DNA from: Sclerodactyla briareus
Lineage: Eukaryota; Echinodermata; Holothuroidea; Dendrochirotida; Sclerodactylidae
Assembly: GCA_026419785.1 (NCBI GenBank)
Contig: JAODTK010005243.1
Span: forward strand, 124,001 to 188,000
Length of the DNA stretch: 64,000 bases
Reading direction: 5' to 3'
Part shown: in pieces, positions 2,239 through 39,184 of the stretch
Position numbering within the stretch: the stretch's first letter is position 1
Layout: each line of letters starts with the position of its first letter
Notes under the pieces: model-generated
Databases searched by the model: none
Told to the model about the DNA's origin: nothing
Seen by the model: only the letters and a program-made list of their open reading frames with translations
Made by a program: the position numbers and the translations under genes

Positions 2239-2300
2239 ATCTACTTTCTATAGCCTCTAGCACTTGACACACCAACGGGGGCAGGCTGGGCGTCCCAGAC
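2239..2300 (-). CDS. PIK3R1: Exon opening a RhoGAP/BH-like domain
   Basis: The acceptor (GCTGATTCAATTTCCAG) and donor (AGAT|GTAAGTGG) are both good; 62 bp, phase 2 to phase 1. It encodes SGTPSLPPLVCQVLEAIESR. This matches the first helix of RhoGAP-family domains and closely the p85 BH domain start (PPLLIKLVEAIEKKG). The next codon begins with T, so a Cys-Leu-Glu continuation in place of p85 GLE is possible. The following exons (EG/STLYR motif onward, then SH2 domains) were not found between here and base 1. The exon abuts a short direct repeat (2092-2238) whose second copy lies at 2664-2820. Confidence 0.5.
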
Positions 2301-2384
2301 CTGGAAATTGAATCAGCCACGCGGGCTGACAGCATACACCAGCTGAGGGAAAGCCAATCAATAGCCAGTCAGTATGATAGTGAT

Positions 2385-7760: not shown

Positions 7761-7874
7761 TTTGGTCCGTGCCGACATGGTTTCCTATACTGTCTCCAGC
7801 TCCACCTCCCGAGAGCAGATCGTCCTTGGTGTAGAGTATACACTTCCGGTGGAATTCGTCCAGTAAACCATGTG
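7761..7874 (-). CDS. PIK3R1: Exon encoding the end of the SAM domain and a glycine-rich linker
   Basis: The acceptor (CTTTTATAATTTGCTCACAG) and donor (CCAAA|GTAAGTCAC) are both strong; 114 bp, phase 1 to phase 1. Joined to the previous exon, the split codon becomes GCA and the peptide continues AHGLLDEFHRKCILYTKDDL. This matches the usual SAM ending (LGI..EFHRKKIL..IKDL), so the two exons complete one domain of about 62 residues. A glycine-rich linker follows (LSGGGAGDSIGNHVGTDQ). The phase match and the completed HRK motif make this the best-supported exon junction in the window. Confidence 0.75.
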
Positions 7875-8854
7875 CTGTGAGCAAATTATAAAAGGACGGC
7901 AATAAATGGCGTGAACCAAACAACCCATCAGTGATTCACAAATTAGCCCAGGATGGTACAAATCATCAGAGGTTAGAAGAAACTAATGTGGCTGGTATAC
8001 TTTCATCCTGAAGGAGTTATATTACCAAGGAGTACCTCATCTAACCTACTAATCTAATCACTGATATTTCATAGAGTGATGTAGTGTTAGCACACTTTCT
8101 ACCCTGATTAAATGAACTCAAGCAAAACATAACAGCAAAACATAACACACTAAGAGATCTGGAGTAAAAGCACACTGATTTGGCTCATTGCGCCAATAGG
8201 GCAAAATTCTACTTGCGATGACATGAACTCCCCAATTCCAAAGTAAATCAAATGAAGTATCACAAAATAAAAGTCAACAAGGAAACACGCCCAAACTTCC
8301 AAAATTTTGAGGGGGTGGGTTCCAGTAAGTTCTCTTTTCACATGTAACTTGAGAGAAATCTGTTACATAACTATTGGGCTTCAAAAGAATAACTCACTGG
8401 CCTGGAGGATAGGGTCTCTACTGGTCGTGAGAGAACTAAAGTTCTCTTTCAGACTACTTTGAGACTTTTCCCAGCCGTCTCTATGTTCTGGAACAACATG
8501 CGATCAGACGCAGGAACCAATCTTCTTTGCGAGACATCACTGAGAGCGGTACATACACCACACATTGACACACACACACATACACAAGTCTGCTTGACTG
8601 CAGAGACATCTTCGATTGTAACCTTCACCTCCTTATGACAGCTTCAGGCAGCAGGCTTATATATCTACATATGCAGGAACATATACAAAATTGTTTGCCT
8701 TTCCATAACATTCCCTGAGAACGTGCTCACAGGAGATAGGAGCAGGAGGATTGAGCAACATCACTGGTTTTTCTTTTTCCTAAACAATCCACTGCCATTA
8801 AAGAAACATGTAGGACCTTTATAGAGTGCTAGCTGGGCAGGAAATCAAATCAGG

Positions 8855-9010
8855 GGAGTCAGGTCAGGGGAGGGGAGTAGGTCAGGGGAGGGGAGTCAGG
8901 TCAGGGGAGGGGAGTCAGGTCAGGGGAGGGGAGTCAGGTCAGGGGAGGGGAAGTCAGGTCAGGGGAGGGGAGTCAGGTCAGGGGAGGGGTCAGGTCAGGG
9001 GAGGGGAATC
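8855..9010 (+). repeat. 19-bp G-rich minisatellite, about 8 copies
   Basis: Unit AGGTCAGGGGAGGGGAGTC, with runs of four Gs in every copy, so the strand could form G-quadruplexes. It lies in the intron between the two SAM exons. Confidence 0.95.
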
Positions 9011-9479
9011 AGTGAGGGGGCCAGGGTTATAGAACTTGACACAGTTTGTCGGCTGTGATATTACACATAAACAAGAATGGACAAGCCTCTTGGCAAGAGT
9101 CAAGAAGGTGAGGTCATTGCAGGTAGATGGCAATGAAGAGGATGGTGAGGTGGCTAGATTGCACATGGTAGAAATCGCCAGGAAGGCACCAGAAGGAGAC
9201 GTGAGAGCAAAAAACAATATATACATATAGTATATATAGTGAAGAATGCACCATTTTGCATCAAGGAAACCTTAAGATTTGACAAAAAGTCAGAAGGAAA
9301 GGGACCATCTCCAGCCCTGTTTTGGTGAATGCTGCCTGGGCGGGTCATCAAAAATTTGTTTTTTCTTCATCACAAGGGGAAGAAAAACAATTGAGAACCA
9401 AGGTTCTATTAGAACATAACTTGTTTTAGCAAGTAGTAATCAATGAATAAACAGATGTCATCTCTCACCTCAAGCTCAC

Positions 9480-9603
9480 CCTCGCTGAGTGTCTGCAGCT
9501 TGTTACCGTTGACGCATTTGGTCCTGAAGAGTTCAGCGTACCTGTACAGGTTAGTGACCGCCATCCAATTGAGTACATCATCTATATGCCAGTGCTGGAT
9601 AGG
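9480..9603 (-). CDS. PIK3R1: Exon encoding the first two thirds of a SAM domain
   Basis: The acceptor is strong (CCTCCTCCTTTCTGCCATTGCAG). The donor used is AGCGAGG|GTGAGC, giving 124 bp, phase 0 to phase 1. The peptide has the SAM pattern: HWHIDDVLNWMAVTNLYRYA, then ELFRTKCVNGNKLQTLSE, i.e. W..DVL.WM....L..Y...F....V.G..L..LSE. A second in-frame donor 11 bases downstream (CTTGAG|GTGAGA) would leave phase 0 and not fit the next exon. SAM domains are small five-helix protein interaction modules. The rest of the domain is supplied by the exon at 7761-7874. Confidence 0.8.
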
Positions 9604-11286: not shown

Positions 11287-11654
11287 CAGTGCTCGAAATT
11301 TACGTAAGCCCGATAGCCCGGGGGCTACTCGAAGTTCAGTTCGGGCTACTAGAAACGTTGCTGCAGCTGCCCGTCGGGCTAGTGAGAAAATTCAGTTGAA
11401 GGTCTAGGGTCTAGGACACTAAAAATTAAAAATAAACTACAACTGATCCTGAACTCCTTTAATGATTTTTTCATAAGCGGCCACAACTGAGCGAACCAGC
11501 AGTATTCGCAACTAATATTCGCAGAAAATGAGCTTCTGCGAAGACCTCCAACATCGACCCGGACTACGACACTCGACCGTCACGAAAATGTAGGCCGATC
11601 AACGATCGTACGTCCCATAACAAAAAGTTGTATAATAAACGCCGGTGCTAGGGC

Positions 11655-12020
11655 GACTACCCCCCCCGGACAATAACCCCCCTCGGCCAACAACCCCGGA
11701 CAACAACCCCTGGACATATACCCTCGGACAGTTACCTTCTGGACAATTACCTCCGGACAATTACCTCCTGACAATTACCACCGAGGACAACTACCCCCCA
11801 GACAATCACCCCCCTGCCATTACCCCGAGGACAAATACCCCCGAGACAACTACCCCCGACAATCACCCCCCCCGGGCAATACCCCCGGGTCAACCCCCCC
11901 CGTGGACATCTACCAACCGACATTTACACCCCCCAGGACAAATACCTCCGAAGACAAATACACTGATAACTATCATTCCGAGACATTATCCGGACACTCC
12001 TCCGGAAGAATACCCACCCC
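11655..12020 (+). repeat. GGACAA/CCCCC short-unit array, left arm
   Basis: About two dozen degenerate 14-17 bp units of the form CCCCCGGACAACTAC. The inverted homologue is at 19290-19605; both contain a distinctive CTACCAACCGACATTTA sub-block. It produces a false Pro/Thr-rich frame. Confidence 0.85.
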
Positions 12021-12029
12021 CGTGGACAG

Positions 12030-13170
12030 CATGTCCACATATACGGTTAATAACGTTTTTGCACGGAAATTCAGATTATCTTCGACGACTCCGGAAATAT
12101 TCAGTCCAGAGTTGGGCTACATTCGACGCCGCGAGTCAACTGTGAACAGCCGGCGCCGTGCCGCGCGATTACCCCCACTATAATTACAACCATATTGCAT
12201 TATGATCAGTGATTTATTTATCTCTGAATTTTGCTGCTTTTGTTTCAAACCGAGGCGTGTCGTACCCTCTACAAGTCGAAATAATTTTCACATATTGTAA
12301 TTATTTTCATATTCAATTGGTGTTGAATTCGAACTTGCTTCCCTGTGAAAGAACATGTTGGAGATTAATGACTTTACGGACCTGTAATTTGAATGTGCCT
12401 GCCATTTGTATTTAACCAGTGGCATGTGTATAGTCAGCTGGGTGTATCGCCGGAAATGTGCCCCTCTGGGGGGGAATGAGATGAACCGTCATCCTCCCCA
12501 CTATCGACTAGAAACAAAGTGCCTGCTCGTGGTGGGAGTACACTTAAAACTAGAAATGATCTTCGCACTCATTACTGGAATCCATTGAATCTAAATGTGA
12601 GGGTTGGGTTTTACTTCTCCACATACAAATTCACGTATTAGCACCAACGCCAGACGATTGACAATCCTCTGCCCGCACCCATACAGTACAATGCCCGACA
12701 CTGAAACAAACTCACTTCATGTCCTGATCAGATACTGTGTCGTATAGTTATCAGCCAAAAAAACAAAAGGGAAAAGTGACAATCGGTTCATGTGGAATAA
12801 CTGATGTTTTTAATGTGTTGGCATGTCCCATTTTTCTCCTTCATAAACGTAACACATTCAATTACAGGCCTGAATCGAGATCTTGATGGCCTTTAATACT
12901 CCTTTCTCTCTGAGCTTTTGAACTGCGCTACCATGCATGAAGAAACACGAAACATCGCCTGAAACATTATGCATGATCTCCATTCCAGGAGCAGTGGCAC
13001 TTTTTTTGCAAACGCCCCCCCCCCCCCCAATGCAGTGATATATGAGGGGTTATACTTGGCAGCTTTCTGGGGGGCCCCTTTGCAGAAGGTTGAGACTGCG
13101 GTTATCCTTTTACTGTCTCTTACTGACAGGTTTTGGATGCACGACCAGGGACGATGTGGACTGCAATTCA
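12030..13170. other. Interior of hAT-like composite without recognised features
   Basis: No gene or repeat family recognised; a C12 run lies near 13015-13028. Confidence 0.35.
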
Positions 13171-18832: not shown

Positions 18833-19289
18833 TTCTACAACCCGCAATATTACGAATTACCCAATGATTAGCTATATCTATTATCTCTATAGCTTTGATC
18901 TCAAACAGTAAATAAAATAGGCAGCTTAGGTAACTGTTGCGTTAATTCGATCGAAGTAAATTGGATTGCGCTTTTCGACCACAGAGAAGCTGAAATATAT
19001 TAAAATTATAGATCTTATATGCCATAACATACCCGTAAATACGCATGGTTATTGTCATTCCCGTCAATCAAGAACTAGTCGTTCAGTCCAGAATTTTCAT
19101 TGTCCTTCGCGCAACTCGTTAGTGGCGCTACCCTTGGCTAGTGTCAAAATTTCCTCATTGCCTATACCCCTGATCGATCGATTGTCGTTAGATGAGTAGG
19201 TTTCCCATGGGCCGACAGCCGCTTACCAGGATCTAGACCACTCCCCCCCCATTTGGTGCTAGTGTGGTAGTTTATACCCTTGGGTATTC

Positions 19290-19605
19290 GTCCACGGAGG
19301 TATAACCCGGGGGGGGGGGTTAAATGTCCGGTTGGTAGTTGTCCTCGGGGGTATTTGTCTTCGGGGGTGATTGTCTGGGGGTTGTTGTCCTTGGGGTATT
19401 TGTCTCTTCGGGGGTGATTGTCCGGGGCGTATTGTCTGGGAGGTTGTTGTCCTGGGGGGTATTTTCTGGGGGGTGAGTGTCCACGGTGTTACTGTCCGGG
19501 TGGATTTGTCCGGAGAAGGCTATGTCCGTGGGATTATCCGAGTATTTATCCAGATGGTAGATGTCCGGGGGGTAGTTGTCCGGGGTATTGCCCCGTCACG
19601 TAACG
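19290..19605 (-). repeat. GGACAA/CCCCC short-unit array, right (inverted) arm
   Basis: GGGGGTAGTTGTCC-type units, the inverted counterpart of 11655-12020, preceded by an 11-G run. Confidence 0.85.
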
Positions 19606-25250: not shown

Positions 25251-27180
25251 AACATCAACATTATGCACTAAAAATTGGTCAGGATGAGAAGCATTTGCGT
25301 GATGCAACAAGATGGGCCCTGGGCTCAAACTGGGCTTTGAGTCCAAAATTCCTGAAAACTCTGGAGGTATTGCTATTAGACCGTCATATCGACTGAAAAT
25401 TAGCACCAAAACTTGGGGAGCAATCATTTTGCATGATTTCCAACATTATGGGCCTCTTGCGAATTTGAAAACACCACAATGGACCCACAACCCAAGGAGC
25501 CTTACAAGTAAAAATTGATTGGAAACTTGTTGGAGGTTTCATTTAAAGGTACCATTGGTGTGAATTTCATGAAATGGGACCCTCTGCAAAGTGGCTGGGA
25601 CCTCGGATGTCAAAATTCCTAAAACCCTCATGGTCAACAACCTCCTTTTTTCAACAGTATGTCAAGCAATGACACCAGACTTCATGAGATAAAGCATTTT
25701 GATAATTCCACATGATGTTACACAGGGCACACCCTGGCCTTGGTTCCCTAAACCCTTGGGCACCCTGCAGGTACGGCAATTGGACCATCATTTATGACCA
25801 AACGTCAACACTGTGCAACAAAATTTGCAGGAGATACAAGATTTTTGTGGTATTTCATTTAATGGCCCAGAATTACTGAACCCCCAATAGCCCTTTATCC
25901 AATAACCATTACAGTTAATTTGAAGAAAAAATTGAAGCTTTGGGAGGAGAATGTATTTCAAGTTACCATTGGGTTGAAAATCCCTAACAACAGGCCGGAT
26001 GGGACCTTGGCTCGAAATTCCGCACACCTCAAGGTACGGATGTTAAAACCCTCTTAGAACAATGTCAGCATGGCACCAAAAATTTGTAAGAGGAGGAAGC
26101 ATTTTGCTTCATTCCACATATGCCAGCCCCAGGGCCCACACTGGGCCTGGGTCTAAAGCCTGGTACGCTGAAGGGCCCAGCATTAGACAAACCTTAGGAT
26201 GAAATCAGCAATGTGCAAACCAACTTGTAGGAGACACATGATTTTGCGGTATTCCAATATATAATGGGCCCAGGGGCCTAGGGACCAACTTGGCCCTGGG
26301 GCCCATGGGGGACCTTGGACCAAATTCCTGAACAAGATACAGCTGTCAGACCAGCGTCATCACTAAACTTGTAAGAGGAGAAGAATTTTGATATTTCCAC
26401 ATGATGGGCCATCAGGCCCACACTAGGCCGTAGGGACTCCACCCCTGGGCACCCTGGAAGTAAGGCTATTTAGAACACAATTATGACTGAACATCAGCAC
26501 TGTTCAACAAAATTTGTAGGAGATACAGATTCTGCAGTATTCATATAGTGGGGCAAGAGGGCCAAACTGGGCCCTGGACCCATAATTAGGAACACCCGAG
26601 GCCTCTACCCAAGGACCATACATGTAACTTTAGAGAAAATCAATTGAAGTTGTGGGAAGAGATGCATTTCAAGTATCAGTGTGAAATTTCATGAAATGGG
26701 CGATGGCCCAGTGGGACCTTGGACGAAATTTCTGAACACCCCAAGCGTACAGCTGGCAGGACCATCAATTATGTAATGGAATGTCAGCACTGTGCACTAA
26801 AATTTGTAAAGAGAGAAGCAGTTGAAATTCCACTTGATGGGCCCAGGGCCCACATGGCTGGGACCTAATTGCTGCGGCACCTACAGTATGGCTATTAGAA
26901 CACCATCACGACTGAACATCAGCACTGTGCAACAAAATTGTCGGAGAGATACAAGATTTTACGATATTACATATGATGGGAACTAGAGCCCCAAAATTCC
27001 CAAAAACACCCCCGATGGCCCTCTACCCAAGGACCATTACATGTAACTTAGAGAACATCAAATGAATCGTGTGGTAGGAGATGCAGTTCAAGTACTGTTG
27101 TGTGAAATTTCATAAATGGGCCTTCGGGCCCAGGACCAAAAATTCCTGAACATTCCGAAGGTACGGCCGTAGACCATCAT
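25250..27180. repeat. Three-type higher-order satellite, ~140-bp monomers
   Basis: Three related monomer types alternate. Type A has AAGAGGAGAAGCATTTTG, type B GGAGATACAAGATTTTG, and type C GGAGATGCATTTCAAGTA after ACCATTACATGTAACTTT. The A-B-C trimer recurs about every 400-430 bp, with one trimer missing its C unit (A-to-A spacings about 420, 290, 436). A second set lies at 30521-32270 inside the duplicated segment. Confidence 0.75.
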
Positions 27181-30100
27181 ACGCACAAAAAAAAAAATGT
27201 TGTTGTCCTCCACGCCTGCTCCGAATTTTCCTTCCGCCCGAACATATTTTTACTTTGAATAATTTTTAATTCTTTTACGCCTTGCAAAATATTACATTCC
27301 GTCACAAAAAACTTTCTCTGTGATCGTTGTCTTAACACACATTATTAAACCCATCATACACATACCTGTGGGAGGTATGCTAGTCAGTGACGGCGTGGCT
27401 CACGATAAACTGTTCTGTATCATGAACCTGTTACCCTTTCTCTAATTTCCCCGAAATTCTCTTCCCGCACATACAGTTTAAAAAGTCTTTGTAGCCTAGA
27501 ACAAGGAACGTTGGAGCCGCGCGTTGCTGGTTGGGCTAGTAAAATGGCTGGAAACATTCATCACACAGATCAAATTACAGCTAGGCCTGGGCTGATGGTT
27601 CGCGGCGACAATGCCATTTATCAAAACTGCCAGACGGGGCCCTACCTTCCTAAAACTTGGGAGGACTAGCAGTGTTGCCACTTCGCACCTGAGATGTGTA
27701 AGAATAGTGAAAGTTGGGCAAGAAAATTCTGAATGAAAAACAAAATCATTGCAAGACATAGGAATTTGAGCATAATCCCTTCACGATCAGTGTGAACTTG
27801 CAAATTGCATTTCAAAGAAAATAAACCTTCAGCACTACAAATTTTAATAGTGTTCTCATACAAAATGTAGAACGCTGATGAGGAGCGACAACACCGTGTG
27901 GGGATGATGCACTTACTTCGTTGTATATTTCTTGCAACTCGGAGCGTGCGGCTCCCGCCGTTCACCACTCAAGTAGTATTTTTCATACCCAGTGCCATCA
28001 CTAGTACTAGCAGGGTCTAAACAGTGTTAGTCGAGACACGGCACATCGAGACCGAGACCAGAAGGGGGCCGAGACCGAGACCAGGACCACAACTTCGAGA
28101 CCGAGATCGATACCGAGACCAGCAAGGTCCGTGACCGAGATCGAGACCGACATGGATAAAGTGTATAGGGGCAACAATTGAAAGTCCGAACTGTATGGTA
28201 GGCCTATTAAACCCACATGCTCTATTTTGACATGATAGACCTCTGCTCATTGATAATGTGTTTTTCTAAGATCTGCAAAACAAGCAACACTTCCGATCAC
28301 TCTCCACAATCGACGAGGAACAGGTCTAAACTACTGAGCATAAATCAAGGGTGGTGCCATGTGAGCTGCACGCCCCCGCACATTCCGGTCAAGCCCCCCC
28401 CTGCCTCCTATTGTCCCAAATTTGTCGGTAAAGCCATGAACCAGAATACACACCCGTCATGGCCTCATCACATTTAATACAAATGTAAAAAATTGATTGT
28501 GAAGACCCCACCAGGATGCAGACGGGACCTCTATGCATTCACACTATGAATATTGCATCCAATGCACAGTAACATGCCCCACTGCGATCCCCTGGACGAG
28601 CCCCTCCCCCTCCCACCTTTCACTTGGGCTCCCACCTCTTCACTTGGTCTCCTCTTCCTTTGCCTGGGAGCAGTTTCCCTGCATCCATCATGCAATGCGT
28701 TCAGGAATTACTACAGTCTAAAACTTCAGGAGTATAGGATGATCATTTGCTCCATTCTCTGTATTCCAATTAGCTGATTATGTTAAAATGCAAGTACAGT
28801 TTAAGGTGGTCATTTCTCAACTAATCAAAAGCTGTAGCAAATACCCCCGGGACAACAATGCACCAGTGCACCACTGGGCTAGGCCTAGTACTACTAGTAC
28901 TTTGTAGGCCCCTGAATGCTATAAAGTCTTGAAAATTACTCCACTGATTGACATGGGCATGACTCTTCATGACAAAGTAGCCAATGAAGCATTCAATGTA
29001 CATGTGAATAAGTGTACTGAGAACAATTCCTCATTCAAGGACTGTGCAGCGGATGTCAGATCAACTTCGCGAAACTGGTACTCATGTCTAAAGGTCTAAC
29101 CCATCTGGAAAATTGAAACAAAGTCATGTTCACAGTCATAACATTGATAATTGATAGTCCTTTAGGCTCCGCAGTACCAATTCCTGCTCCCTCCTCCCAC
29201 TAAATTAGTAACTGAAATCACTAAAGATTCACCTCTCTCCTCTTCTGTCACAGTATCAGGTTCAGTGCCTGCTGGGTTTTGTTTCGGGGGTAGCATACGT
29301 AACGGGGATCCCATGTTCATAGGCCCGGGTTCTTTTCATTCAATCTTTTTCCTCATGATTAAGGTTCACATATTAGGGTTGGATAGAAACTAGGTTGAAT
29401 AGCACTAACAAAACGGTCCGAAAATCGTGGAAGAACATGATACTATCCAGTTTGAACAGAACATAACAATTTCGGAGCAATTTGATGGGCTAATGCCTAA
29501 TATATCCACTGTAAAATAACGGCATTCACAAGTGAGACACCATAGAGAAGGAAGCCAACCTGATATCCTCTCTATGAGCAACCCGAATGAACCATTACCA
29601 GGCATCTGACTCCTTGCCTACTGTACTGTGACTACTGTGTGTGACTGCCAACGAGTTGAAGCAAGCAACAATACTGGTCCCTGGGCAGTTTCCCACATTG
29701 ACCAACTTGAAGGCCCACTCCACTTGCTCAGTTCATATCAAAGCTCAACGCATGAATTGCAGGATATTTTTGGCTGACTCTGAATGTCTTCCGAAAAAAA
29801 AGACGACACCAAATTTTTGCTGGTCTCGAAGCGAGACCGAAAAAATTTCCGGGTGACAAAGCCATAAAGCGGTTCAAGACCGAGACCGAGACACAGTGTG
29901 TCGAGACTGGAAAGTGGTGGAAAATCTGTAGACCAGCACAAAGCTGGTCTCGAGACCGAACCGGTCTGCGAGACTCTACAACACTGGGTCTAAACATGGC
30001 GTCGTACACCTCTGGTGGGGGTGGATAGTTTCTGTGTAAACTCTGTAAACTGTTGTGATGACTTCTACCCTGAAGGAGATTTATCCCACTTAGGCAGTGT

Positions 30101-30520
30101 GGAACAAAATGATTCAGACCACTTCCTGAAATGTGGAAGTCGCGGAGTCACGAAATTGCCCATAGAGTGATATAGGCCCAAAGAATTGGTGTCCACCTTG
30201 CGTGGTTTTTGCATGCGAACTTCCCGTCACGGTTCCACTACTTAACTTTGTTACTTGTAGGGTTGCAGCGGAAACTGAAGCTCCTGATGCAGCTAGTACT
30301 AGTAATGCTGATGAACGGAACGCATTTTTTCTATTTTCACATTTTACTTATGTGCAAATCTGCGTTCCAGAAAGAAAAAAAAGAAAAAAAAGAAAAAAAA
30401 TATCCCCCGCCCCGCGATTTTTCAGAGGGTCTGGAGGACAACAAACATCTTTTTTTTTCGGCCTAATGACCGAACATCAGCACTGTGCCAATAATTTGTA
30501 GGAGGAGATACATTTTGAAA
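25468..30520. repeat. 5.1 kb tandem duplication, unit 1
   Basis: Begins in satellite sequence at TTGAAAACACCAC, and its end abuts unit 2 at the same TTGAAAACACCAC. The last 1,008 bases (from about 29513) are identical to unit 2 except two homopolymer-A lengths; the first 4 kb differ by many scattered indels. Confidence 0.85.
28014..29994. mobile_element. hAT-like non-autonomous element (copy in unit 1)
   Basis: Element 28022-29986 has CAGTGTT and AACACTG ends (extended match CAGTGTTGTAGAGTCTCG on the right) and an exact 8-bp target duplication GGTCTAAA at 28014-28021 and 29987-29994. Both subterminal regions carry tandem GAGACC motifs, a typical hAT transposase-binding layout. No transposase frame. 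Confidence 0.85.
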
Positions 30521-33500
30521 ACACCACCAATGGACCACACCCCAGGAGCATTTACAAGTAAAAAATTGATTGAACTTGTGTAGGAGTTTTGCATTTAAAG
30601 TACCATTGTGTGAAATTTCAGAAATGGACCCTCCTGCTCAAAGGTGCCAAAATGGGAACCCGGATGAAAAATTCCAGAAACCCCAGGTTACATCTGTTTT
30701 ACACAGTATGTCACAATGAGCACCAGAATTCATTAGGGCAAGCATTTTGCATATTCCACATGATGTCCACCAGGGCACAACTGGGCCTTTGGTCCCAAAT
30801 CCTTGGCACCCTGCAGGTACGAATTGGACCATCATTATGACAAACCTCAATCACTGTGCAACAAAATTTTGCAGGATATACAAGATTTTGTGGTATTTCA
30901 TTAAATGGGCCCAGAATTCCTGACAACCCCTAGCCCTTTATTTAATAATCCAGAAACCATTACAGTAACTTTGAAGAAAATCAATTGAAGCTTGTGGGAG
31001 GAGGATGTTTTCAAGTACCTTGTGTGAAAATTCCATAAAACAGGGGCCGGTATGGGACCTTGGCTCGAATTCTGACAACCTAAAGGTACGGCTGTTAAAC
31101 CATCATTTATGACCAATGTCAGCACTGGGGGGTGCACCAATAATTGGGTAAAGGGAATCCTTTTTGCTAATTCCAGCATGATTGGGCCAGCCCCAGGGCC
31201 CACACTGGGCCTTGTCCCTAAATCCCTGGTACCTCTGAAGGGCACAGAATTAGACAAACATTATGGACTGAACATCAGCACTGTGCAACAAACTTTGTAG
31301 GAGATACATGATTTTGCGTATTCCATATATAATGGCCTAGGGGCCTAGGACCAAACTTGGCCCTGGGCCCTGGGACCTTGGACCGAAAAATTCCTGAACA
31401 AGATACACTGTCCTACCATCGTCATCACTACCTTTGTAAAGGAAAAGCCTTTCTCATATTTCTCACATGATGGGCCCAAGGCCCACCTATGCCGTATACC
31501 TCAACCCCTGGGCACCCTGGGAAGTACAGCTATTTGAACACCATTATGACTGAACATACACTGTTCAACAAATTTTTGTAGGAGATACAGATTCTGTTCA
31601 TTATTTCATATATTGGGGCCCTAGGGCCCAAACTTGGCCTGGACCTAATCCTGAACACCCCGATGGCCCTCTACCCAAGGACATTACAATGTAACTTTAA
31701 AGAAATCAATTGAAGCTTGTGGGAAGAGAGTCATTTCAAGTAATCTTGTGTGAAATTTCATGTAAATGGGGGCCGAGGGCCCAGTGGGAACCTTGTACCG
31801 AATTTCTTGACAACCCCAAAGGTAACAGCTGTCAGAGGACCATCATCTTGACTGAATGTCAGCACTGTGCACTAATTTGTAAGAAAGAAGCAGTTTTGCA
31901 AAAAAAATTCCACATGATGGCCCCGTGGCCCTACACTGGGCTTGGGACCTAATTCCCTGGGCATCCCTACGATATGGCTATTAGCCCCCATCAATCACGA
32001 CTGAACATCACATGTTCAACAAAATTTGTAGAGATACAAGATTTTACAACGATATCAATATGATGGGCCCCTGATCCCCCCCAAATTCCCAAACACAACC
32101 GCCGATGGCCCTCTACCCAAGTACCATTACATGTAACTTAGAAGAACATCAATAATCGTGTGTAGGAGATGCATTCAGTACGATTGTGTGAAATTTTCAT
32201 AAATGGGGCCCTTGGCCCAATGACCCAAATTCCTGAACAACCAAAAGGTACGGCTGTTAGACCACATCATAAGGCCTAAAAAAAAAAAATTGCTTGGTTG
32301 TCCTCCACCGGCCTCTCAATTTTTCCTCCTGCGCACGAACATATTGTTACTTCAATAATTTTTTATTTCTTGTTCCGCTTGTCAATATTACATTTCCGTC
32401 ATCAAAAACTTTCCCTGTTCGATCGTTGTCTTAACACACATTATAAAAACCCAATCATAACATACCTGTGGGAGTATCTAGTCCTTGACGGCGTGCTCAT
32501 CGTTGAAACTGTTCTGTATCATGACTGTCCAACCCTTGTCTCATAATTTCCGCCTAAATACTATTCCCTCACATCCAGGTAAAATTTTTACGTAGCCTGA
32601 ACAGGACGTTGGAGACCCGCCGATGCACTGTGGGCTATGTAAATGGTTGGAAACATTCATCACACAAGAATCAAATTACAAGCCTAGGCCTGCTGCATGG
32701 TTCGCGGCGACAATGCATTTATCAAACATGCCAGACGGCACTGACCCTCCTAAACTTGAGCACTATCAGTGTTGCCACTTCGCCCTGAGTGTAGAATAGT
32801 GAATGTTTTGCAATAAAATTTCTTAATGAAAAACAACAATCATTGCAACGACATAGGAAATTTTAGCATATACCTTCACATCAGTGTGAACTGTCAAATT
32901 GCTGTCAAAGAAAATAAAACTTCAGCGAAAAAAGCACTACAAATTTTAATAGTGTTCTCATACAAATGTAGCAACGCGGATGATAGCGACAGCACAGTGT
33001 GGGGCTGATAAGCACTTCTTCGAGTTATATTTCTTGCAACTCCGCCGAGCGTGCGCTCCGGTCACCACTCAAGTAGTATTTTTCATACACAGTGCCGATC
33101 ACTATTACTAGCAGGGTCTAAACAGTGTTGGTAGTCTGCGACTTCGGCACATCGAGACCGAGACCAGAGGTGCCGAGACCGAGACCAGTAGCAGCAACTT
33201 CAAGTACTGAGCCGGACCAGCAAGGGCCGAGACCGCTCGAGACCGAAGTTATAAAGTGTATATGGCAAACAATTTGAAGTCCGAACTGTAGTGTAGTAGG
33301 CGCTATTACACCCACATGCTCTTTTTTGACATGATAGACACCCTCTGCTCATTATTACATTTGCTTTTTCTAAGATCTCAAACAGCCAACCTTCTGATCA
33401 TTTCCACATCGACGAGGAACCGGTCTAACCACTGAGCATAAATCAAGGTGTGCCATGTAGCATGCACGCCCCCCCCATTCCGGTCAGCCCCCCCCTCCTC

Positions 33501-35610
33501 TATTTTTGCCAAATTTATCGTGACGCCATGAACCAGAATACACACCCGTCATGGCCTCATCACATTTAAAATAAAATGTAAAAATTAGATGTAAGACCAC
33601 CAGGATGCAGACTGTACCGTCTTGTCATTCAACACTACTGAATATTGCACCAATACACAGTAACAATGCCACTGCGACGCCCTGGACGACCCCGTCCCCT
33701 TCCCCCTCTTCACTTGGTCCAGCCTCTTCCCTTGGTCTACCTCTTCCTTTGCCTGGAGCATTCTTTCCCTGCATCCATCATGCAAGCGTTCAGAATACTA
33801 CAGCTTCCTAACCCAGGAATTTATTGATCATTTCTCTCATTCTCTCTATTCAATTACTTCGTATGTCAATGCCAGTACGTTTTTAAGGTGGTCTTCTCAA
33901 CTAATCAACGCTACAAATACCCCCTTGTACAAAATTGCACAGGGGGGGGGGGGGGGGCACTCACTGGGGCTAGGCCTAGTACTACTAGTACTTTTAGGCC
34001 TGAATTGCTATAAGCTCTTGAAAATCTCCATTGATTGTACATGGGCATGACTCTTCATGACAAGTAGCATGAAGCATCCAGGGAATGTAAATAAGTGTAC
34101 TGAGAACAATTTCTCATTCAAGGACGTGCAGCGAATTTCAGAGCACTTTCGCGAAACTGGTACCAAGTCATGAAAGGTCTAACCCATCTGGAAAATTGAA
34201 ACAATTCATGTTCACAGTTTCAAACGTGATAATGATAGTCATTGGCTACAGCAGTTACCAATGTACTGCTCCTCCTCCCCACTAAATAGTAACTGAAATC
34301 ACTAAGTATTCACCTCTCCTTCTCTACTGTCACAGTATGCAGGTTAGTGCCTGCTGGATTTTGTTTGGGGGTAGCATACGTAACGGGGGGTTTCCCATGT
34401 TCATATGCCCGGTTTCTTTTTCAGTCAATCTTTTTTTCCTCATGAATTAGGTCACAATATGAGGTTTGGATAGAAATAGGTTGAAATAGCCCTAACAAAC
34501 GTTCCGAAATCGTGGAAGAACAGATACTATCCCAGGTTTGAACAGACACATAACAATTATCGGAGCAATTTGATTGGCTAATGCCTAATATATCCACTGT
34601 CAAATAACGGCATTCACAAGTGAGACACCATAGAGAAGGAAGCCAACCTGATATCCTCTCTATGAGCAACCCGAATGAACCATTACCAGGCATCTGACTC
34701 CTTGCCTACTGTACTGTGACTACTGTGTGTGACTGCCAACGAGTTGAAGCAAGCAACAATACTGGTCCCTGGGCAGTTTCCCACATTGACCAACTTGAAG
34801 GCCCACTCCACTTGCTCAGTTCATATCAAAGCTCAACGCATGAATTGCAGGATATTTTTGGCTGACTCTGAATGTCTTCCGAAAAAAAAGACGACACCAA
34901 ATTTTTGCTGGTCTCGAAGCGAGACCGAAAAAATTTCCGGGTGACAAAGCCATAAAGCGGTTCAAGACCGAGACCGAGACACAGTGTGTCGAGACTGGAA
35001 AGTGGTGGAAAATCTGTAGACCAGCACAAAGCTGGTCTCGAGACCGAACCGGTCTGCGAGACTCTACAACACTGGGTCTAAACATGGCGTCGTACACCTC
35101 TGGTGGGGGTGGATAGTTTCTGTGTAAACTCTGTAAACTGTTGTGATGACTTCTACCCTGAAGGAGATTTATCCCACTTAGGCAGTGTGGAACAAAATGA
35201 TTCAGACCACTTCCTGAAATGTGGAAGTCGCGGAGTCACGAAATTGCCCATAGAGTGATATAGGCCCAAAGAATTGGTGTCCACCTTGCGTGGTTTTTGC
35301 ATGCGAACTTCCCGTCACGGTTCCACTACTTAACTTTGTTACTTGTAGGGTTGCAGCGGAAACTGAAGCTCCTGATGCAGCTAGTACTAGTAATGCTGAT
35401 GAACGGAACGCATTTTTTCTATTTTCACATTTTACTTATGTGCAAATCTGCGTTCCAGAAAGAAAAAAAAAGAAAAAAAAAGAAAAAAAATATCCCCCGC
35501 CCCGCGATTTTTCAGAGGGTCTGGAGGACAACAAACATCTTTTTTTTTCGGCCTAATGACCGAACATCAGCACTGTGCCAATAATTTGTAGGAGGAGATA
35601 CATTTTGAAA
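30521..35610. repeat. 5.1 kb tandem duplication, unit 2
   Basis: Second copy of 25468-30520, offset 5088-5090 bases in the identical part. Carries its own satellite set (30521-32270) and hAT-like element. Confidence 0.85.
33115..35082. mobile_element. hAT-like non-autonomous element (copy in unit 2)
   Basis: Element 33123-35074 with the same GGTCTAAA target duplication as the copy in unit 1. The shared target site shows the copies arose by segmental duplication (or assembly), not by two insertions. A 17-G run near 33943-33958 is unique to this copy. Confidence 0.85.
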
Positions 35611-38874: not shown

Positions 38875-39184
38875 CTGGCCCATCATCTGGCTTTGCTGGC
38901 GGTGTCGGGCGGGCCCTGGGTACGGGGACAGGCGGCATCCCTAGGTACCTCACATAGGTACCTGGGAAGTTACACTGCTCGTTGGTCCGTTCATGGCGCC
39001 CCAGCAGCCAGCCAACGGGGCTGTCAAGGTACCCCTAAAGAAGCTGCAACTGGAGGATGGTAGCATTCACGATCAGAAGGTACTGGCCTGGAGTTCAATG
39101 TCCCCTTGGTTGCTATTGGTGTAGGGGTGGAACTGCCCAGACTTTAGGAACTGCGGGCAGAAGTGCCGGGACATGGTGTCCTGC
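38875..39184 (-). CDS. PIK3R1: First coding exon: p85-type SH3 domain plus proline-rich tail
   Basis: The exon follows a strong acceptor (TTTTTCCTTCCAG) and ends at CCAG|GTGGGAA, leaving phase 1. An ATG in an ACCATG context lies 6 bases inside and starts [13 protein letters not shown], so this is probably the first coding exon behind a 5'UTR intron. The N-terminal part reads [10 protein letters not shown], matching the acidic DIDLHLGD region of p85 SH3. The middle reads [14 protein letters not shown], resembling p85 ILTVN. The C-terminal part reads [16 protein letters not shown] then [12 protein letters not shown], followed by [17 protein letters not shown], matching the p85 SH3 end and its proline-rich motif. 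As assembled, the frame shifts once after LQAS and there is one TAG before GYLDSPVG. An intron there would be only about 40 bp, so assembly indels are the likelier cause. Confidence 0.75.

Follow-up and report, generated by a model that had tools for sequence, protein, structure and literature searches.

A sea cucumber PI3K regulatory-subunit gene of the p85 type that very probably has both an SH3 and a SAM domain

Does the p85-like gene at this sea cucumber locus encode a SAM domain between its SH3 and BH pieces? The human p85 proteins, PIK3R1 and PIK3R2, are without a SAM domain according to the available part of one source (PMC12817958), and the Figure 1 legend in the accessible portion of another (PMC7458397) names no such domain. 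The candidate SAM exons lie in a window of 64,000 nucleotides (contig 124001-188000). We analysed contig 24,001-205,312 (the contig has 205,312 bases), and the genome searched was the assembly of 319.5 Mb in 3171 contigs. Gene content points to an animal as the source.

The contig was scanned by tblastn with human p85alpha as the query. We found p85-like pieces on the minus strand in the order of the human PIK3R1 and PIK3R2 proteins (SH3, BH, nSH2, iSH2, cSH2), over a colinear span of ~76 kb, contig 163.0 to 87.3 kb, that extends far past the window (Table 1). The tblastn rows kept are those that are colinear and on the minus strand; many others are proline-rich or chance matches that, by E-value, are as strong as the weak pieces. 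The exons are short, which keeps the single E-values of the p85 pieces modest, and the identity of the locus is therefore argued from order, strand and independent profiles, not from single E-values.

Table 1. Pieces of the p85 gene and the SAM exons, in gene order. Positions are those of the window unless marked as contig; a slash marks a splice site.
Feature	Position	Strand	Splice sites and phase	tblastn E
SH3	contig 163.0 kb, within the exon of the next row	-		3e-8
SH3 exon, proline-rich tail	38875..39184	-	donor CAG/GTGGGA, phase 1 as read	
SAM exon 1, 45 codons	9469..9603	-	acceptor TTGCAG/CCT, donor GAG/GTGAGA	
SAM exon 1, alternative donor	after 9480	-	GAGG/GTGAGC	
SAM exon 2 (probable), C-terminal third, HGLLDEFHRKCILYTKDDLL...	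7761..7874	-	acceptor CTCACAG/CA, donor AAA/GTAAGT	
First BH (RhoGAP-homology) piece, ...SLPPLVCQVLEAIESR	2239..2325	-	donor GAT/GTAAGT	
The same BH piece, weak tblastn match	contig 126.28 kb	-		33
BH	contig 105.5 kb and 104.2 kb	-		3.8 and 8.4
nSH2	contig 102.2 and 100.7 kb	-		0.008 and 0.01
nSH2 end	contig near 99.2 kb	-		0.11
iSH2	contig 96.8 and 95.8 kb	-		0.065 and 1.2e-5
cSH2	contig 91.1 kb	-		0.022
Last cSH2 exon, two copies	contig 88.6 and 87.4 kb	-		0.002 and 2.3e-8

The inter-SH2 profile PF16454 (cut-off 31.5 bits) matched the genome three times at E up to 1, with 37.3, 19.9 and 16.8 bits. The first is the only one above the cut-off and lies, together with the second, on the contig and strand of the p85 pieces; the third is on another contig. 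Human p85alpha or p85beta was the top PDB match of the SH3, nSH2 and iSH2 pieces alike. For the iSH2 piece it was p85beta (phmmer, E 8.9e-6), and for the nSH2 pieces, joined with one frame skip, p85alpha (E 4e-18), the same joined query scoring 38 bits with PF00017. The SH2 piece at contig 100.7 kb reached, as a single piece, 20 bits, just below the cut-off of 21, and the first cSH2 piece 17.9 bits, under the same cut-off. Of the two copies of the last cSH2 exon, the second had no Pfam SH2 match and nonetheless matched p85 by tblastn at E 2.3e-8. The locus thus has two SH2 domains flanking an inter-SH2 region, the nSH2 by profile and PDB match and the cSH2 by tblastn, and it carries the predicted inter-SH2 coiled coil of a class IA regulatory subunit, with putative p110 binding. 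A search for the p85-binding domain of p110 itself gave no match, in a search where no control gave one either, so that absence is not implied.

The N-terminal half of the long p85 isoforms, SH3 followed by BH/RhoGAP, was likewise recovered, the former by PDB match and the latter by profile. The SH3 exon matched human p85alpha at 42% over 50 aa by tblastn, and the best PDB matches of its 48-residue piece were p85alpha (phmmer, E 3.5e-6); Pfam recognised no SH3 domain in this piece. The RhoGAP profile (cut-off 24.5 bits) scored 28.9 bits at contig 105.5 kb, or 31.7 with a stop read as X. The first BH piece is weaker: at 2239-2300 it has a 14-residue p85 match that at E 33 is by itself at chance level, and it has no Pfam match. 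In a slot test of the interval from the SAM exons to the next BH exon, this piece scored 41, and the highest score in any of 10 control intervals (4 minus-strand, 6 plus-strand) was 32; we accept it because it beats all ten.

The locus is identified from its sequence as a class IA PI3K regulatory-subunit (p85) gene, and no second such gene was detected in the assembly. Much of what the first-pass annotation had proposed for the gene as a whole is upheld. The gene is p85-like, with the remaining pieces, BH to cSH2, following colinearly on that strand outside the window; its SH3 exon is of the p85 type by PDB and tblastn matches, though Pfam is silent; and exon order and strand bear out the location of the SAM exons, between SH3 and BH. 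Its claim that the BH exon in the window looks like p85 stands in the slot test and fails by tblastn alone and by Pfam.

We then consider the SAM exons themselves. SAM exon 1 encodes the N-terminal two thirds of the domain and scores 25.8 bits with Pfam SAM_1 (E 1.3e-5; cut-off 23 bits), and this match establishes it as a predicted SAM exon. SAM exon 2 contributes HGLLDEFHRKCIL, and with it, the exons joined and the frame skipped, the SAM_1 score rises to 35.8 bits. Searched on its own, exon 2 had no Pfam match, and the profile alone was rejected as proof of it, since 13 of the 21 control intervals of equal length scored as high. With splice-site filters (a pyrimidine tract and a donor matching at 7 of 9 positions) exon 2 is the top candidate of its interval and none of the 21 controls reaches its score; these filters were picked post hoc, with the exon's own splice sites known. 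SAM exon 2 is, thus, probable. A whole-genome search with the joined SAM (E up to 10) returned nothing but the two exons from which it was built.

Two SAM exons between p85 exons might also come from another gene that lies within a p85 intron in the same orientation. Across window 1-39.4 kb we scanned 150 open frames of the minus strand for Pfam domains, and SAM_1 was the sole credible match (E 1.4e-4); 13 other families at E 0.011 to 0.098, the best of them unrelated, were taken as chance. No credible domain of another gene was therefore seen on that strand in that interval, which argues against nesting, as does the donor of SAM exon 2 (AAA/GTAAGT), through which the SAM exons run on into a downstream exon. 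Same-strand nesting of genes is, moreover, uncommon. The scan had low power, however: it overlooked the SH3 and BH pieces of p85 that lie in the window and could have overlooked another gene as well. Long unannotated stretches also flank the SAM exons, with no recognised exons across the ~29 kb between SH3 and SAM, and the phases as read fail to join cleanly. Against this stands the SAM domain of a shrimp p85 (PMC12817958, available part), and on balance we judge a nested gene quite unlikely. The SAM exons are better read as part of the p85 gene.

The phases need closer attention. As read, the SH3 exon closes in phase 1 and SAM exon 1 opens in phase 0. With the donor needed for the complete domain (GAG/GTGAGA), SAM exon 1 also closes in phase 0, while SAM exon 2 both opens and closes in phase 1 and so has to be entered in that phase. 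A donor 11 bases earlier (GAGG/GTGAGC) is in phase 1 and in frame and loses four residues (GELE) and ~10 bits, the join at this phase-true donor scoring 25.9 bits. In this indel-rich assembly, then, one open and spliceable SAM frame comes from the in-frame join without the four residues, and the full domain from a frame skip. Of the acceptor candidates for the first BH piece (2300, 2325 and 2342), only 2325 can follow SAM exon 2 in its phase as read. A three-frame print and a frame-aware alignment show one or more frameshifts and an in-frame TAG in the SH3 exon. The SAM exons had been described as clean, of compatible phase and forming a complete domain. Neither cleanness nor compatible phase was borne out, given the mismatches between SH3 and SAM exon 1 and between the two SAM exons and the frameshift and stop in SH3. 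As to completeness, the part in exon 1 stands on its profile, exon 2 is only probable, and the full domain requires the frame skip.

Are such frame breaks peculiar to this gene? By frame-aware alignment we counted 22 frameshifts over 11 stretches of p85 (1514 nt), an upper bound because similarity is weaker there. A CCT4 exon, picked as the plainest case of frame change among three inspected of four CCT loci, had 6 in 235 nt. Alpha-tubulin had 9 in 4 stretches totalling 1532 nt (0 in 486 nt, 0 in 222 nt, 3 in 395 nt and 6 in 429 nt), and in its best copy, the larger pieces of which are 88-98% identical to human, tblastn changed frame several times past a clean stretch. Profile matches with internal stops made up 6 of 14 for HSP70, 1 of 7 for tubulin and 3 of 4 for CCT; in some of them the stop may come from read-through into an intron. 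Frameshifts are thus common but uneven, and more frequent in p85 than in tubulin. Because CCT4 and alpha-tubulin exons are broken too, we read the frame breaks in the p85 exons as assembly error, the assembly having many small indels. With this indel load, phase neither proves nor refutes an exon join, and phase compatibility was rejected as proof of one. Other gene findings from the same assembly will need polished reads.

The same counts bear on two further explanations. One is that the SAM exons form a cassette, used alternatively or decayed, which is missing from most p85 transcripts, as might be suggested by the frameshift or four-residue loss that the passage from SAM exon 1 to exon 2 needs as read, and by the stop in the SH3 exon. 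Similar indels in core p85, CCT4 and alpha-tubulin, however, point to the assembly, the SAM exons have good splice sites and the first of them is well conserved, and we regard a skipped cassette as very unlikely. The other is that the entire p85 locus is a pseudogene, the working gene being absent from an assembly that may be incomplete (few CCT matches and no COX1). The frameshifts are many, with some stops, and their rate exceeds that of alpha-tubulin. Yet the locus has kept introns, good splice sites and long conserved stretches, for example DRKMNSIKP and EDAEWYWGNISR, and the highly conserved alpha-tubulin copy and CCT4 are frame-broken as well. A pseudogene is the least probable of the explanations, and we consider it highly improbable. 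We put at about 0.83 the probability that the gene encodes SH3 - SAM - BH/RhoGAP - nSH2 - iSH2 - cSH2, and infer that all the p85 and SAM exons are spliced into one mRNA; put more simply, this is very probably a p85 gene with an SH3 and a SAM domain, as predicted from the DNA.

Had such a protein been seen before? The PI3Kp85alpha of the shrimp Penaeus vannamei (GenBank MH397365.1) is reported to have an N-terminal SAM domain together with a pair of C1 domains, all of them missing from the human protein (PMC12817958, available part). The sea cucumber gene resembles it in having SAM in the N-terminal part, where human p85 has none, and differs in two respects: no C1 domain was found in it, and it has an SH3 domain, on which the shrimp account is silent in its available part (PMC12817958). 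For C1, neither the C1_1 profile nor a pattern matched in the p85 interval and tblastn gave no convincing match, searches whose power is limited by indels and short exons; one weak C1_1 match lies elsewhere on the contig, on the opposite strand. The suggestion that this was an undescribed protein architecture is thus overtaken by the shrimp report (PMC12817958, as far as its available text goes). As an independent case, the shrimp protein makes the gene model more credible and its novelty lower. Among open-licence papers in PMC, the only one seen to describe a SAM-bearing p85 was PMC12817958, in its available part, and a p85 with both SH3 and SAM may be in print elsewhere. The gene is, very probably, a further case of a kind of p85, one with a SAM domain, that is reported but, in the papers searched, seldom mentioned.

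The joined SAM matched 33 PDB sequences at E up to 1. It is weakly like the SAM domains of liprin-beta-1, CNK2, neurabin-1, SHANK2 and DGK-delta (best E 0.018), scores too low for assignment to a subfamily or binding mode, and no PI3K subunit is listed among these proteins. The matched SAM proteins include polymer-forming and partner-binding kinds, so that either mode may apply here.

In mammals, p85alpha dimerises through its N-terminal half by SH3-proline and BH-BH contacts, and this dimerisation is tied to the control of PTEN and PI3K (PMC7458397, accessible portion). A SAM domain between SH3 and BH would adjoin both contact regions and would add a further protein-protein contact to this half of p85. 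It would aid self-association of the regulatory subunit or tether PI3K to a SAM-bearing scaffold. We lean to the idea that the SAM contact tunes p85 dimerisation or clustering.

An evolutionary extension, which we regard as possible rather than probable, is that SH3-SAM-BH-nSH2-iSH2-cSH2 was the ancestral bilaterian layout of p85, retained with SH3 as well as SAM in this animal and trimmed differently in shrimp and vertebrates. Vertebrate p85 would then have lost a self-association or tethering surface used elsewhere for control of PI3K. A SAM module in the animal's only detected p85 would mean that regulation in human cells may be a reduced form of an older system, and deletion or mutation of the SAM would offer a direct handle on that idea.

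Some minor features of the gene and its surroundings were also noted. The BH piece at contig about 105.5-105.7 kb reads LYRTS...LKRYLRELPNP and keeps the arginine of the RhoGAP finger motif. With its LREL it presumably resembles ordinary RhoGAP domains more than human p85 does, and the GAP activity of this piece might be stronger than that of human p85. The last cSH2-encoding exon is duplicated in tandem, and its copies have diverged (contig 88495-88662, NEKLDTALLNPFYAPQ, and 87253-87414, NEKIDTALLYPFYGTQ); the two are possibly alternative last exons.

Between the SH3 and SAM exons we noted a head-to-tail direct repeat of 5.05 kb (window 25464-30520 and 30514-35610; 85.5% identical, 456 gap columns), which may be a true tandem duplication or else have arisen as an artefact of assembling sequence rich in indels. 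Proline-rich open frames in tandem repeats occur at window 11639-12183 on the plus strand and 19162-19595 on the minus strand, and are probably repeat DNA, not genes. A further tandem array, at window about 683-1267, has 83.6% identity at a shift of ~33 bases, with translated units such as GSIWLATSWQDQ.
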